DNA from: Polaromonas sp.
Lineage (GTDB): Bacteria; Pseudomonadota; Gammaproteobacteria; Burkholderiales; Burkholderiaceae_C
Assembly: GCA_026786065.1 (NCBI GenBank)
Contig: JAJAYS010000082.1
Location: 1 to 17,886, forward strand
Direction: 5' to 3'
DNA length: 17,886 nt
The notes below the pieces were generated by a model, which saw nothing but the letters and a program-made list of their open reading frames with translations, had not been told where the DNA came from and did not search any database. A program made the translations under genes and the position numbers. This document shows positions 4,401-16,138 of the stretch, piece by piece (within the stretch, counting starts at the first letter, position 1; each line of letters begins with the position of its first letter).

Positions 4401-4424
4401 ATGACCGCATGACCGAATGACCGA
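4401..4424 (+). repeat. Three 8-bp tandem repeats carrying start codons
   Basis: ATGACCGC, ATGACCGA and ATGACCGA follow each other without gaps. Each has an ATG in a different frame. The first two ATGs each open a three-codon frame that ends in a TGA overlapping the next ATG; the third is the start of the DUF938 gene. No Shine-Dalgarno sequence is evident upstream. Confidence 0.7.
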
Positions 4425-5040
4425 TCTTCCCTTCAGCCCCGCCGCAGAACGTAACCGGCAGCCGATTCTTGAAAGCCTGCTTCACGCCCTGCAGGAACGC
4501 GGGCAGGCGCTTGAAATTGCATCCGGCACTGGCCAGCATTCCTGCTGGTTCGCTGCGGCGATGCCGCGCTGGACTTGGCAGCCGACCGATGCCGATAGCG
4601 CTGCGCTCCCCGTCATCGCGGAATACCGCGCGCGATCCGCACTACCCAACATTCGGCCACCGCTGCAGCTCGACGTCTTGGCCTGCCCATGGCCGACGGC
4701 CTCCGATGGATTTACCAAACGCTTTGACGCGATCTACTGCGCAAATCTGATTCATATTGCCCCGTGGCAGGCTTGCACTGCACTGATGCAGGGCGCGGCC
4801 AGGCACCTGTCCAGCACCGGCGTGTTGCTGACCTACGGCCCGTACATCGAAGACGGCGTGCCCACCTCTGCAGGCAATGCGGCCTTTGACGGCAGCCTGC
4901 GCACGCGCGATCCGGCCTGGGGCATACGGCGGCTGGCCGATGTGGCGGCCGAGGCCGGGCGCGCCGGTTTCCGCTTGCGTGCACGGCATGCGCTGCCGTC
5001 CAACAACCTGTTGCTGGAATGGGTCAGATCGGGCGGGTGA
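4417..5040 (+). CDS. DUF938 SAM-dependent methyltransferase-like protein
   Basis: This 207-residue protein matches the DUF938 group of class I SAM-dependent methyltransferase-like proteins. It opens with the group's typical AAERNRQPILESL. It has motif I LEIASGTGQH at residues 32-41 (SAM binding), an acidic residue after strand 2 (QPTDAD), and a motif IV-like region DAIYCANLIHIAPW. The middle part LLTYGPYIEDGVPTSAGNAAFD and the C-terminal ALPSNNLLLEWVR are also typical. The natural substrate of this family is unknown. The ATG is the third of three tandem 8-bp units, and no ribosome site is visible, so translation may depend on re-initiation or on coupling with the upstream reading. The gene ends 55 bp before a dispersed repeat and converges on the decarboxylase-like gene at 5160. 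Confidence 0.85.
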   Translation: MTDLPFSPAAERNRQPILESLLHALQERGQALEIASGTGQHSCWFAAAMPRWTWQPTDADSAALPVIAEYRARSALPNIRPPLQLDVLACPWPTASDGFTKRFDAIYCANLIHIAPWQACTALMQGAARHLSSTGVLLTYGPYIEDGVPTSAGNAAFDGSLRTRDPAWGIRRLADVAAEAGRAGFRLRARHALPSNNLLLEWVRSGG

Positions 5041-5095
5041 GTGGCTGGGCACGCGGCCGCCAGTGCTGCTACGGGCACCGATGCGCCTGCTTTTA

Positions 5096-5140
5096 ACTAC
5101 TTTTTTTATAGCTGTTTACGCCCGTATTTAGCGGGCTTAA
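5096..5140 (+). repeat. Dispersed palindromic repeat, copy 1 (intergenic)
   Basis: This is the intergenic copy of a ~45-bp repeat found three times in the window. It has a first inverted pair (degenerate ACTAC, seven T, ATAGC), then TGTTTA, then a second hairpin GCCCG/CGGGC (5120-5124 with 5132-5136). It shares the 17-mer ATAGCTGTTTACGCCCG exactly with the copy in the photolyase gene. It lies between two convergent genes and could act as a two-way transcription end, since T-rich tracts flank it on both sides. Confidence 0.8.
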
Positions 5141-5159
5141 AGCACTTTTTTGTTATTTT

Positions 5160-5681
5160 TCAGGTTCTATCTACTGAGCCGGTGAGCGGCAGCAGCTCGG
5201 GCTCGGCGCCGTCCGGCAGCGGGTACTGATCGACATTGAGCGTCATGCTGACCAGCGTGTAGTAACTCAGGGTTCCCATTACATCGACGACGCCGGCCTC
5301 ACCGAACTGCGCCACCAAAGCCGCATAGGTCTGGTCGCCAACGCGCCGCGTTTGCAGCAACTCGCTGCAAAAGTCGTGGACGGCGGCGACATCGGCCGGC
5401 AAGGCAGGCGGCTTGGCGCCGCTTGCAATCGCAGCAACCAGCGCGGCGTCGAGCCCCGCCTCGAGCGCGATGCGCTTGTGCGCCCACCAGACAAAGTGGC
5501 TGCTCCAGAAACGCGCCACCAGCAAGATCGCCAGCTCGTTGAGCGCCAGCGGCAGCGACGAGTTAAAGCGCGTGTGCGCCCCGAACTTCTGCGCCAGGTC
5601 GCCGAGTTCGGGGCTGCGCAGCAAGACGTTGTACGGCCCCTGTAGCGAGCCGCGCTGGCCGGACAGCACGCTCTCGACCAT
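5160..5681 (-). CDS. Carboxymuconolactone decarboxylase-like protein, N-terminus unclear
   Basis: The product resembles the carboxymuconolactone decarboxylase (CMD/AhpD-like) family, small all-helical proteins acting in aromatic catabolism or peroxide defence. From the first in-frame ATG (5681) it is 173 residues. Typical features include GPYNVLLRSPELGDLAQKFGAHTRFNSSLP in two stretches, LNELAILLVARFWSSHFVWWAHKRIALEAGL, and DFCSELLQTRRVGDQTY. The CxxC pair of AhpD is absent, so peroxidase activity is unlikely. The frame stays open upstream of the ATG and encodes RFKPLTWDTLTQRQLS, which looks like the normal family N-terminus, but I find no ATG, GTG or TTG for it. An ATG at 5779, 13 bases after the dioxygenase stop, lies in another frame. 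A one-base loss between 5779 and about 5740 would explain this. It is the third gene of a minus-strand unit with a Bug protein and a dioxygenase. Confidence 0.75.
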   Translation of the reverse strand: MVESVLSGQRGSLQGPYNVLLRSPELGDLAQKFGAHTRFNSSLPLALNELAILLVARFWSSHFVWWAHKRIALEAGLDAALVAAIASGAKPPALPADVAAVHDFCSELLQTRRVGDQTYAALVAQFGEAGVVDVMGTLSYYTLVSMTLNVDQYPLPDGAEPELLPLTGSVDRT

Positions 5682-5792: not shown

Positions 5793-6640
5793 TCAGACCG
5801 GCCTGTCGCCCTCGAGCGTGATGCGCTGCATGATGCGGCGAAAGCCGTGGTAGTCGTTGACCGGGTTGTGCTGGGTGCAGCGGTGGTCCCAGAAGGCGAT
5901 GGCGCCGGGCTCCCAGGCCCAGCGGCAGGTCAGCTCCGGCTTGACCTGGTGCGCGAACAAAAACTGCAGCAGCGGCGCGCTTTCCGCGTCGCTCAGGCCC
6001 TTGATGCCCGAGGTGTGCGCGACGTTGACATACAGGGCCTTGCGGCCGGTTTCAGGATGGGTCCGGACGACCGGGTGCTCGGCGCGGTGTTCCCTGGGGG
6101 CGGCAGCGTCCTTGCCACCGTTCTTTATGCGGTCCTCGCGCGTCTTCGACACGTCGGCGTTCGCCGAGCTGCTGATGCCGATGAGTCCGACGAGCAGGCT
6201 CTGCATGGTGGCCGACAGCGTGTCGTAGGCCAGGTACTGGCTGGCAAACAGGGTGTCGCCACCGTAAGGCGGCACCTCACGCGACAGCAGCATCGAACCC
6301 ATAGGCGGCAGGTCAAGGTAGGTCAAGGTAGGTCAAGGTAGGTCGTGTCGGAATGCCAGATTCCACCGAAGTTCACGGTTTCGTGCTCCAGCTTCTTGAC
6401 CTGGATGATGTGCGGGAAGCCGTCCAGGCCTTTGACGAAAGGGTACTCGACCGGCCGGCCCATTGCCTGCGCGAAGGCCAGAAACTGCGCTGGGGTCAGA
6501 TGCTGATCGCGCAGAAAAATCACCTGATGCTGCAGGAAAACCTGGCGAATGTCGCAGGCCAGTTCCAAAGAAACGCCCTGGACCAGATCGACCCCCGAAA
6601 TCTCTGCGCCCAGCGCCCCGGCAATCCGCCTGATCTTCAT
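5793..6640 (-). pseudogene. TauD/TfdA-type Fe(II)/2-oxoglutarate dioxygenase, frame broken by a 10-bp repeat
   Basis: The sequence encodes a TauD/TfdA-family dioxygenase in two frames. The upstream part starts at the ATG at 6640, with AAAGGAG placed seven bases before it and overlapping the stop of the preceding gene. It runs to HSDTTYLDLP and stops at 6323 after about 105 residues. The rest (VPPYGGDTLFASQYLAY to the end) continues in another frame from 6326. The iron ligands are His96 and Asp98 in WHSD and the His in CTQHNPVND; the 2-oxoglutarate Arg is in RRIMQR. All catalytic residues are present once the frames are joined. The break lies exactly at three copies of GGTCAAGGTA; with one copy the frame is restored to TTYLDLPPMGS, about 276 residues, normal for the family. 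It may be a recent pseudogene, a variable locus or an assembly artefact. Substrate unknown. Confidence 0.85.
6311..6344 (+). repeat. 10-bp tandem repeat inside the dioxygenase gene
   Basis: GGTCAAGGTA occurs three times in a row (6311-6340), followed by a partial GGTC. On the coding strand each unit reads TACCTTGACC. Two extra units add 20 bases and shift the frame, creating a TGA in the second unit. The stop TGA overlaps a TTG, so limited re-initiation is conceivable. Confidence 0.9.
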
Positions 6641-6652
6641 CAAGTTGCTCCT

Positions 6653-11116: not shown

Positions 11117-12112
11117 TCAGGGGGAGGCCCCGACGTCGGCAAAGTAATTCTGCGCCTCGGGCGGCAGGGCGCGGCCAGTGCGGTGCGCACGCTCGAGCAC
11201 ATGCCAGAAGTATCGGTAGCTGGCACGGTCGTGCAATTTCCCAAAAAAACTGATCGGAGCCCAATTTTCATGGGCGCCAAAAGCTATGATTTTGATAGCG
11301 ACTTCGACCTCGGCCTGCTGTGGCGCGAAAGCCTCAAGAATCGGCCGGATCTGGTTCGGGTGGACGCTCCACATTCGGGTAAAGCCGAAGTCGAGGGCGG
11401 CACGGCCGACCGCCGCCTGAATCGCCGCAGCGTCGCCAAATTCGGTGACGACGCAGTGCGACGGCACCTTGCCGTGGGCGTGGCAGGCCGACGCGATTTC
11501 GAGCTTGGCGCGCACCACCAGCGGGTGCGTGAACTGGCCTTTGCCGCTCATACCGTCGGAGGGAATGGCGCCGCCGTGGCTGGAGACGAAATCCATCAGG
11601 CCAAAGCTAAGCGACTGCACGCGCGGATGGGCAGCGATATCGAAAGCGCGGTGCACCGCCGCCGGCGATTCGATCAGCACATGCAGCGGCAAGGCGCCAG
11701 CGGACGCCGCCAGCAGCGCCTGCTCGGCGCGCAGCACGTCGGCTACCGACTCGACCTTGCGCACCATGATGTGCACCAGCCGCTGCGACAGCCGGCCGGC
11801 AATGGCCGCCATGTCGGCCTCAAAAGCCGGGTGATCGACCGGATGCACCCGCACCGCAATGCGTGCGCCGGCGGGCGCGGCCAGTGCCAGCTCGATGACC
11901 ATCTGCGCATGATCGGCCTCGCCGCCGACCGGCGCGCCGTCTTCGCAGTCCAGGCTGACGTCGAAGACGCAAGCGCCGAACTCTTCGGTCATCTCGGCCT
12001 GCAACTGCAGGCTTTTGCGCATCCGTGCCTCGACGCCGCTGTAGTGGTCGCAAACCGGGATGGCGCTGGCCGCGGCTTGCGCACCTAGAAGGATGTCGCG
12101 GGGGTGGGTCAT
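11117..12112 (-). CDS. CitE-like (HpcH/HpaI) acyl-CoA lyase
   Basis: This protein of about 331 residues belongs to the HpcH/HpaI aldolase/citrate lyase beta-subunit superfamily, TIM-barrel Mg-dependent lyases acting on malyl-CoA-type or citramalyl-CoA-type substrates. The start is ambiguous: ATG 12112 (MTHPRDILLG) is chosen, but ATG 12133 is also possible, and neither has a clear ribosome site. Family features include SLDCEDGAP, an IMVRKVES strand, LIESPAAV (the metal-binding Glu region), SFGLMDFVSSHGG (metal-binding Asp region) and RMWSVHPNQI. The C-terminal LHDRASYRYFWHVLERAHRTG is well formed. Near residues 272-285 the sequence AIKIIAFGAHENWA is encoded by a dispersed repeat also found in the photolyase gene. 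No CitF or CitD partners are present, so this is a stand-alone lyase, not citrate lyase. It sits between mdh and acnB, suggesting a link to C4 or C5 acids. Confidence 0.88.
   Translation of the reverse strand: MTHPRDILLGAQAAASAIPVCDHYSGVEARMRKSLQLQAEMTEEFGACVFDVSLDCEDGAPVGGEADHAQMVIELALAAPAGARIAVRVHPVDHPAFEADMAAIAGRLSQRLVHIMVRKVESVADVLRAEQALLAASAGALPLHVLIESPAAVHRAFDIAAHPRVQSLSFGLMDFVSSHGGAIPSDGMSGKGQFTHPLVVRAKLEIASACHAHGKVPSHCVVTEFGDAAAIQAAVGRAALDFGFTRMWSVHPNQIRPILEAFAPQQAEVEVAIKIIAFGAHENWAPISFFGKLHDRASYRYFWHVLERAHRTGRALPPEAQNYFADVGASP
11255..11299 (-). repeat. Dispersed palindromic repeat, copy 3 (inside the CitE-like gene)
   Basis: On the minus strand: GCTAT, CAAAATC, ATAGC, then TTTTGGCGCCC, ATGAAAATT and GGGCT. 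It aligns without gaps to the copies at 5096 and 14912, has the same two hairpins, and is read in the same frame and direction as in the photolyase gene. Confidence 0.75.
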
Positions 12113-12142
12113 GGTGGGCTCTGACTGTGTCATCACGGCTTC

Positions 12143-14336: not shown

Positions 14337-14549
14337 ATGAACTTCAAAGGCAACAAATCGGCGCTGCCGACCAAAATCTGCGAGGCTTGCGGGCGGCCTA
14401 TGAGCTGGCGAAAAAGCTGGGCAAAAAACTGGGCCGAAGTGAAGTATTGCTCCGACGCCTGCCGCCGACTGAAAGCGGCCCGCCAGCCGGCTGAGCCGGC
14501 AGACTGCCCCGCCGGTGACCCCCCGAACGTCGCAGGGCCCTCCGCATGA
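14337..14549 (+). CDS. DUF2256 small zinc-ribbon protein
   Basis: This 70-residue protein has the DUF2256 pattern. N-terminal KSALPTKICEACGRPMSWRKSWAKN is followed by WAEVKYCSDACRRLK, giving CxxC and CxxxC pairs (CEAC and CSDAC) that likely bind one zinc. The C-terminal part after residue 46 is Ala/Pro-rich and looks disordered. DUF2256 genes commonly lie next to photolyase/cryptochrome genes, and here the stop overlaps the photolyase start by ATGA, so the two are translationally coupled. The function is unknown; a helper role for the photolyase is a guess from context. It begins 10 bp after the gntR stop, which suggests cotranscription with the regulator. Confidence 0.9.
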   Translation: MNFKGNKSALPTKICEACGRPMSWRKSWAKNWAEVKYCSDACRRLKAARQPAEPADCPAGDPPNVAGPSA

Positions 14550-16138
14550 CCCAGCCGGAACACGTGCCTTGTCGCCACCTGATCCTGATCCTCGGCGACC
14601 AACTCGATCGGCACTCGGCAGCTTTTGACGGCATCGACCTGACGCAAGACGTGGTGCTGATGGTCGAGGCCCGTGAAGAATCGACGCATGTGTGGTCGGC
14701 AAAGGCGCGCACCACGCTGTTCCTGTCGGCAATGCGCCATTTCGCGCAGGAATTACGGCATCGCGGCTGGCGGGTCGCCTACCGCGCGCTGGAGAGTGAA
14801 GGCGACGCGACGCTTGCCGCCGGTCTGGCCGCCGCCATCGCGCAGCACCGGCCGCAGCGCGTGCTTGGCGTAGAGCCCGGTGACCTACGGGTTCGGGAAA
14901 GCCTGACAGTCGCTATAAAAAACATAGCTGTTTACGCCCGAAAAAACTGGGCTCACGAGCTAAATGATTCAATACTTTGGCACGAAGACCGGCATTTTCT
15001 GTGCAGCCCGGCACAGTTTCGCAAATGGGCCGGCAAATCGACCAGCCTGCGCATGGAATTTTTCTACCGCGTCATGCGGCGCCAGCACCGGGTGTTGATG
15101 GACGGCGACGCGCCCGTCGGTGGCAAGTGGAACTTCGACCTGGAAAACCGCAAGGGGTTTGGCAGGGCCGGTCCGCAGGCGGTGCCGCCCGCGCCGGAGT
15201 ACGCGCCAGACGCGCTGACCCGCGAGGTGATGGCAGTCGTTGAAGACCAGTTTGGCAGCCATCCTGGTAACCTGGGCAAGTTCAACTGGCCGGTGACCCG
15301 CGCCGAGGCCTTGCGGGCACTCGCCGATTTCATCGACCACCGCCTCGGGCAGTTCGGCACGCATCAGGACGCGATGTGGACGGACATGCCCTTTGGCTGG
15401 CATGCGCTGCTGTCGAGTTCGCTAAACCTGAAGCTGCTCAACCCGCTCGAAGTCGTCGTCGCAGCCGAAACCGCCTGGCGCGAGCGCGGCCTGGACCTGG
15501 CCAGTGTTGAAGGCTTCATCCGGCAGGTTCTCGGATGGCGGGAGTTCATCCGCGGGGTGTATGCGCTTGACATGCCAGCCCTAAAAGAAGCCAACCATTT
15601 CGGGCATGGCAACGTTTTGCCGGCCTGGTACTGGACCGCCGCAACCAAGATGAACTGCATGCGGCAGTGCCTCGGGCAAACGCTGGCGCACGGTTATTCG
15701 CACCACATTCAGAGGCTGATGGTGACGGGCATGTTCGGCGTGATTGCGCAAATCCGCCCCCAGGACCTGTGCGACTGGTATTTGGCGGTGTACGTCGATG
15801 CGGTCGAATGGGCTGAATTGCCCAACACTGCAGGCATGGCGCTGTATGCCAATGGCGGCCGCTTCACCTCCAAACCCTACATTGCCAGCGGCGCTTACGT
15901 CCACCGGATGAGCAACTACTGCGGCGGCTGCCAGTACAAGCCGACACAGCGAACCGGCCCCGAGGCATGCCCCATGACGACGCTGTACTGGAACTTCCTG
16001 GATTGCCACGAGGCGGAAATGGCCGCCAACCCGCGCACCAGCCTGATGGTCAAAAACCTGCAACGCCTGGGCCCGGCCGAGCGTCAGGCGGTGCGCGAGC
16101 GCGCTGGCGAGATGCTGGCCGAACTGAACGCACTGTGA
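14546..16138 (+). CDS. FeS-containing photolyase/cryptochrome (PhrB-like, (6-4) type)
   Basis: This 530-residue protein belongs to the FeS bacterial cryptochrome/photolyase group; Agrobacterium PhrB of this group repairs (6-4) photoproducts in DNA using light. The N-terminal Rossmann-like antenna domain starts with LILGDQLDRHSAAFDGI. The catalytic FAD domain follows from about residue 230 on. Four cysteines, 371 (MNCM), 459 and 462 (YCGGC) and 475 (EACP), have spacings 88, 3 and 13, identical to those I know for Agrobacterium PhrB, and ligate a [4Fe-4S] cluster. AHGYSHHIQRLMVTGMFG and WYLAVYVDAVEWAELPNTAGM are conserved FAD-domain blocks. Residues 123-136 (AIKNIAVYARKNWA) come from a dispersed repeat and interrupt the usual path from RVRESL to EDRHFLCSP. 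ATGA overlap with DUF2256. Whether it repairs DNA or signals cannot be decided here. Confidence 0.92.
   Translation: MTQPEHVPCRHLILILGDQLDRHSAAFDGIDLTQDVVLMVEAREESTHVWSAKARTTLFLSAMRHFAQELRHRGWRVAYRALESEGDATLAAGLAAAIAQHRPQRVLGVEPGDLRVRESLTVAIKNIAVYARKNWAHELNDSILWHEDRHFLCSPAQFRKWAGKSTSLRMEFFYRVMRRQHRVLMDGDAPVGGKWNFDLENRKGFGRAGPQAVPPAPEYAPDALTREVMAVVEDQFGSHPGNLGKFNWPVTRAEALRALADFIDHRLGQFGTHQDAMWTDMPFGWHALLSSSLNLKLLNPLEVVVAAETAWRERGLDLASVEGFIRQVLGWREFIRGVYALDMPALKEANHFGHGNVLPAWYWTAATKMNCMRQCLGQTLAHGYSHHIQRLMVTGMFGVIAQIRPQDLCDWYLAVYVDAVEWAELPNTAGMALYANGGRFTSKPYIASGAYVHRMSNYCGGCQYKPTQRTGPEACPMTTLYWNFLDCHEAEMAANPRTSLMVKNLQRLGPAERQAVRERAGEMLAELNAL
14912..14956 (+). repeat. Dispersed palindromic repeat, copy 2 (inside the photolyase gene)
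   Basis: GCTAT, AAAAAAC and ATAGC are followed by TGTTTACGCCCG, AAAAAACT and GGGCT. It shares ATAGCTGTTTACGCCCG exactly with the intergenic copy at 5108-5124. In the photolyase it encodes AIKNIAVYARKNWA in frame and without a stop. It is more A-rich than the surrounding gene. Confidence 0.85.

Follow-up and report, generated by a model that had tools for sequence, protein, structure and literature searches.

The window analyzed here, 17,886 nucleotides, comprises the entire contig C82 of a Polaromonas sp. genome (G000; 2.93 Mb in 396 contigs, 83.6% complete). Two genes in it, for a photolyase and a CitE-like lyase, each carry a copy of a palindromic motif, and there is a third copy in a spacer. 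Many of the named homologues of both proteins are from Polaromonas. The features are as follows.

5090..5157, + strand: third motif copy, in a spacer (56.9 bits with the weight matrix; maximum in the reversed window, -16.5)
11117..12136, - strand: CitE-like (HpcH/HpaI aldolase/citrate lyase family) protein, 339 aa (homologues with PF03328; PDB 3r4i and 3qqw)
11238..11305, - strand: motif copy in the CitE-like lyase gene, frame S0 (55.1 bits with the family model, 55.5 with the weight matrix)
14546..16138, + strand: cryptochrome/photolyase-family protein, 530 aa (homologues with PF04244; PDB photolyases 3zxs and 4dja)
14906..14973, + strand: motif copy in the photolyase gene, frame S0 (70.1 bits with the family model, 73.1 with the weight matrix)
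14912-14952, + strand: core palindromes of the photolyase copy

The original prediction was that a 45-bp repeat encodes almost the same peptide inside these two enzymes, and what it described at the locus was confirmed. The 45-mers at 14912-14956 (+) and 11299-11255 (-) align without gaps with 34 of 45 bases identical, both on direct reading contain GCTAT-n7-ATAGC followed by GCCC-n9-GGGC, and both are in the same orientation and frame in their genes, where they are translated as AIKNIAVYARKNWAH and AIKIIAFGAHENWAP with 9 of the 14 leading residues identical. Elsewhere on either strand of the window, the photolyase 45-mer matched at no more than 28/45 bases, and a pattern covering both 45-mers had these two matches only, with none in 200 shuffles. 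The third copy, which is intergenic and had been missed, is flanked by convergent ORFs at 4417-5040 (+) and 5160-5681 (-). Also in the window, ORFs 6323-6643 and 5793-6326 (both -) overlap, with residues TYLDLP common to both at the junction; the two look like one gene split by a frameshift, presumably for a TauD/TfdA-type dioxygenase.

The motif is about 68 bp long and consists of two short palindromes and an AT-rich tail. That the repeat is dispersed, palindromic and in frame in unrelated genes of a betaproteobacterium was supported by a search of the genome, in which GCTATNAAAANNATAGCT with up to one mismatch occurred at 101 places and at none in the reversed control. A family model built from 29 of the first 30 loci (L024 was left out) matched 150 of 150 scored candidates in G000, a lower bound given that these were scored out of 1097 first-look candidates, and a weight matrix applied to 159 fetched G000 loci recognized 158 distinct copies, compared with none when the sequence was reversed. 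The left edge of the motif (CAGTC) is sharp in G000 and the right edge fades beyond about 65 nt. Copies in G000 average 42% GC compared with 64% in their loci.

Pattern counts against the reversed control were 512/5 in G048, 442/8 in G023, 343/2 in G000 and 337/6 in G061, and at the low end 78/7 in G058 (which we take to be strain JS666), 18/10 in G002, 13/7 in G012 and 8/5 in G073. In six related genomes, 352,647 bp contained 80 copies and the reversed control none; evenly spaced stretches of G061 totalling 300 kb contained 58, compared with 1 in the reversed control. Three of the G061 stretches, L480, L481 and L482, had 1, 0 and 1 copies, compared with 3 to 6 in the other twelve, and could be acquired DNA. 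In G023, 69 of the 71 listed places (0-1 mismatch) were on contig C9, which makes up 4.41 of about 5.4 Mb. The motif matched in 20 of 25 genomes sampled from the genus (none in G004, G006, G012, G021 and G022), in 42 of 120 genomes and 41 of 119 genera sampled from the family, and in one of 16 genomes from other families of the same order, where the matches were two and weak. As about one in three of the family's sampled genera carry the motif, its cause is open to test in cultured laboratory strains. The window had no match to an Rfam family at E up to 1, and the motif strings were not found in the open-licence literature searched, where the shortest string alone gave matches, those listed being irrelevant; nor was there anything on the motif among the matches listed for open-licence literature on Comamonadaceae or Polaromonas repeats, uptake or BRE.

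Placement relative to genes was assessed with gene calls from a hexamer model trained in this analysis, not from annotation. The 57 placed copies of G061 were in convergent spacers (20), codirectional spacers (20, at a median of about 22 nt past the upstream gene), divergent spacers (3) and genes (14); with 83% of the sequence coding, copies are under-represented in genes. Of the 80 copies in the six related genomes, many of which are one site counted several times, genes contained 31, and the rest were in codirectional (28), convergent (14) or divergent (5) spacers or at edges (2). Intergenic copies thus favor positions just past the 3' ends of genes or between convergent genes. In G000, 19 ORFs contained 21 in-frame copies flanked on either side by coding signal; their frames were S0 in 6, A2 in 11, S2 in 2 and A0 in 2, in a sample of the best-scoring copies with the antisense frame of the lyase set aside; in G061 the frames were S0 in 7, A2 in 5, A0 in 1 and S1 in 1. 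Other genes, then, read the motif in other frames and on the opposite strand from the photolyase and lyase, and the peptides from different frames are unrelated. In-frame entry in the manner of the Rickettsia palindromic elements (RPE) had been proposed; the in-frame copies agree with it, and the use of at least four frames does not. One PutA gene (L138, G000 contig C126) contains two motif copies that lie in opposite directions and are read in different frames, and an unnamed ORF in L191 has two as well.

The copies look like sites of one motif rather than recent duplicates. Among 137 non-coding copies, pair identity was 0.610 (sd 0.062) compared with 0.618 (sd 0.055) in simulations with independent columns, and column dependence faded by about 5 nt (the value at distance 17 is a division artefact). 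The best pair among all 158 copies was 87% identical. Across eight genomes, 52 of 63 copies had one or more orthologous places available for comparison, and lengths were mostly 61-84 for a 72-nt window, the exceptions being an aconitase-like gene, some sites with sequence lost or gained (49, 99) and, as an artefact, a trpF-like gene. No empty site was seen at these 52 copies, and motif positions were mostly the same in related species. There was no sign of recent mobility, either in the best-pair identity or as a clean full-length presence or absence at the comparable copies.

The consensus differs by lineage (G000, clade B and G061). The CAGTC left edge of G000 is not conserved in clade B or G061, and the second palindrome is GCCC..GGGC in two of the lineages and GCGCA..TGCGC, in shifted register, in G061. 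At six intragenic sites the matrix of the copy's own lineage fitted better for 6 of 6 G000 copies and 34 of 35 clade-B copies, a likelihood ratio that is biased because decay mimics a less sharp consensus. Four GC-neutral diagnostic columns divided 17:6 in G000 and 8:12 in clade B (p = 0.03), and six AT-to-GC columns 18:10 and 7:18, respectively (p = 0.013), in a test with one clade-B genome per site and a clade-B consensus that includes the 12 coding copies excluded from the matrix comparison. The trend was reversed for UbiA in G000 (1:3) and for the lyase in clade B (16:2). Intragenic copies thus lean modestly to their own lineage's version. Conservation driven by structure was considered and rejected, as bases expected to pair in the inner stems frequently mismatch and gave no particular signal in the dependence test, and folding of the consensus was not clearly better than that of shuffles (z -1.45 to 0.12).

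At the lyase site, spacing between landmarks was identical in 106 of 106 comparable rows, motif or not (110 loci were given, and at least 11 of the rows are the same gene fetched twice). Motif scores were above 40 bits in 49 of the 110 orthologues and below 0 in 41, and PDB 3r4i and 3qqw align across the segment free of gaps. Motif-like codons at this site are present in Polaromonas and, judged by eye, also in Acidovorax, Simplicispira and Giesbergeria, with native codons in Limnohabitans. A mobile repeat that donates a peptide had been proposed for both enzymes; for the lyase this failed by the refuting check given with the proposal, since the comparable rows keep one spacing with or without the motif, and it held for the photolyase, where alignment with homologues shows an extra segment. 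Other genes resembled the lyase. PurK has 53 aa in the compared window at 29 of 29 other loci, only one of which scores below 0, and its matched stretch is 386 aa in the motif-free G012 compared with 387. UbiA has mostly 53 aa (56 in two motif-bearing loci and 54 in one motif-free locus), PutA has 51-53 aa at its first site, i.e. within 2 aa, and 53 at its second except for one distant PutA at 91 and three truncated matches, and MCC-beta has 49, 52 or 53 aa, with 5 of the 6 genes with the strongest motif at 49, the same as motif-free genes. PDB alignments showed small or no length change in PutA, PurK and MCC-beta, and a gene that we take to be trpF was of equal length in six genomes. Overlay without length change was the majority among sites tested with close orthologues and not the sole pattern; the ortholog sets, each limited to the 30 best loci at most, contain too few of the distant motif-free orthologues.

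In these natural orthologue series one can follow how a long DNA motif appears within a gene, and they are graded, from GC-rich native codons that are already motif-like at many places to a strong motif. The protein sequence changes along with the motif. Amino acid identity between motif-rich and motif-free orthologues was 0.22-0.59 in the core compared with 0.57-0.84 in the flanks, and even among motif-free genes the core was variable in UbiA and both PutA sites (identity 0.19-0.38), though less variable in MCC-beta (0.67) and the lyase (0.70).

In photolyase, the motif goes with a longer loop. There were 33-53 codons between two landmarks in 10 of 10 orthologues with a positive motif score (33 in G000), compared with 20-24 in 18 of 20 with a negative score, the other two (L074 and L076) having 33, and two PDB photolyases lack 12 and 16 residues at the motif segment. 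The aconitase-like gene, presumably an aconitase, has gained 8 aa in G041 and G065 and 12 in G005 relative to four related genomes. Larger gaps near or around the motif were present in PDB alignments of DapF, TrmJ, GluQRS and XdhA, and there were hints of inserts, from profile or PDB alignments, in GluQRS, CobU, TrmJ, XdhA and DapF. Spacers were compared with those of motif-free genomes in five rows, of which three (deltas -764, 114 and 570) are uninterpretable and two are one orthologous site, leaving a single clean independent spacer, 58-66 nt longer than in motif-free G012. The copy in this spacer (G048:C12, near 102470) ends 4 nt before the start codon of a gene that we would call leuB-like.

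We tentatively interpret the motif as an old, family-wide, REP-like motif that is now maintained and shifting in place under a putative driving process, a reading to which we would give slightly less than even chances. In its favor are the length-neutral sites, the graded series, pair identities as expected of independent columns, the lineage consensus and the rarity of copies in genes; against it are the photolyase loop, the aconitase-like gain, the hinted inserts, the longer spacer and the length of the motif itself, together with UbiA in G000 and the lyase in clade B, which were contrary in the column test. Copies would be maintained and changed mainly by point substitution, through a process that depends on recognition of the sequence, which might be selection to bind some nucleic-acid-binding factor or else molecular drive like that of uptake sequences; no protein recognizing the motif was found in this analysis. 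Within genes, the motif would be found where the native codons were similar to it to begin with, or in parts of the protein that can absorb change, such as variable segments and expandable loops like that of photolyase. The peptide shared by photolyase and lyase would be a by-product, arising because one DNA motif is read in the same open frame in both. A motif of this length that is present hundreds of times yet shows no trace of recent copying is not what is generally expected of REP or mobile repeats, and neither is its overlay on conserved enzymes such as PurK, UbiA and PutA.

A decayed mobile repeat is a close rival. Quite possibly an ancient REP- or MITE-like palindromic repeat once spread by insertion into many spacers and tolerant protein loops and later ceased to do so, leaving the present copies as diverged remnants. 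Because photolyase loop length tracks the motif, maintenance in place was judged less probable and this alternative more so; it is also consistent with the gain in the aconitase-like gene, with the one clean spacer that is longer than in G012, and with positions that are mostly common to species, as expected of old insertions. It accounts less readily for the six sites without length change, for the absence of copy lineages or of any pair above 87% identity, for a consensus that tracks lineage, and for the lack of a transposase link. Length-neutral copies could be old insertions trimmed by selection or patches from short recombination, but patch copying of more than about 6 nt should give longer column dependence than was seen. 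The proposed RPE-like mobile repeat, which would enter genes in frame and contribute an additional peptide, is very unlikely in our judgment. The 21 in-frame copies and the extra photolyase segment agree with it, but there is no extra segment in the lyase, PurK, PutA (two sites) or UbiA and at most 4 aa in MCC-beta, the motif is read in several frames as unrelated peptides, recent copies are lacking, and the photolyases of L074 and L076, with 33 codons and a negative score, are possible equal-length cases. Chance or codon overlap as the source of the likeness of the two window copies has only short length to recommend it and was rejected with near certainty on the shuffles, the next-best match in the window, and the 101 places and 158 matrix matches with none in reversed sequence.

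A more specific form of maintenance in place would be that the motif is a self-recognition, uptake-type signal of Comamonadaceae that accumulates by molecular drive, rewrites protein segments mostly without length change and drifts in each lineage. We consider this unlikely; it would make the family a third group with such a signal besides Pasteurellaceae and Neisseriaceae, and the motif the longest of the uptake type and the only double palindrome. Uptake sequences are reported to arise through point mutations and not to be inserted, to be specific to lineages, and to be depleted both in coding DNA and in DNA acquired recently (PMC7811141). The motif resembles DUS of Neisseriaceae and USS of Pasteurellaceae in its many genome-wide copies and lineage-specific variants. 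It differs in being far longer, 40-68 bp compared with known cores of 9-11 bp, and in that the photolyase and one spacer look insertion-like.

Among other known systems, RPE are likewise short palindromic repeats in frame in genes of unrelated function (PMC3733652); in contrast, most of the gene copies examined closely here add no segment, and the motif is read in at least four frames and its copies have diverged like motif sites. The beta-proteobacterial repeat element (BRE) is a short dispersed repeat of Betaproteobacteria including Polaromonas, with some copies wholly in coding sequence, a length of 75-91 bp and 69% GC in Bordetella, and copy numbers of 29 in Polaromonas JS666 and 4 in P. 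naphthalenivorans (PMC3110155). The motif, with 42% GC in G000, differs from that description in base composition and could yet be a BRE variant. The order of copy numbers is also the reverse, 78 in G058 and 442 in G023, if G058 is taken as JS666 and G023 as P. naphthalenivorans.

REP and BIME, which are GTAG/CGTC-tagged and associated with RAYT, are similar to the motif as high-copy palindromes that are mostly intergenic, 3' of genes, and sometimes intragenic. REPs inside genes are already on record, including one in a photoreactivating enzyme of Thauera (PMC3733652). The motif differs in its length of about 68 bp with two palindromes, compared with 20-40 bp for REPs, and no conserved GTAG or CGTC tag was present beside the palindrome in G000, clade B or G061. 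A RAYT-linked REP was considered and rejected: the motif occurred in only 4 of 20 PF01797 loci, within 200 nt in 2, and a PF01797 gene was present in 60 of 61 genomes of the genus, motif-free ones included. The gene was not found in the motif-rich G010 (79% complete). The PF01797 (Y1 transposase-type) gene is usually about 240 aa long and occurs mostly once per genome in the genus (L234-L248).
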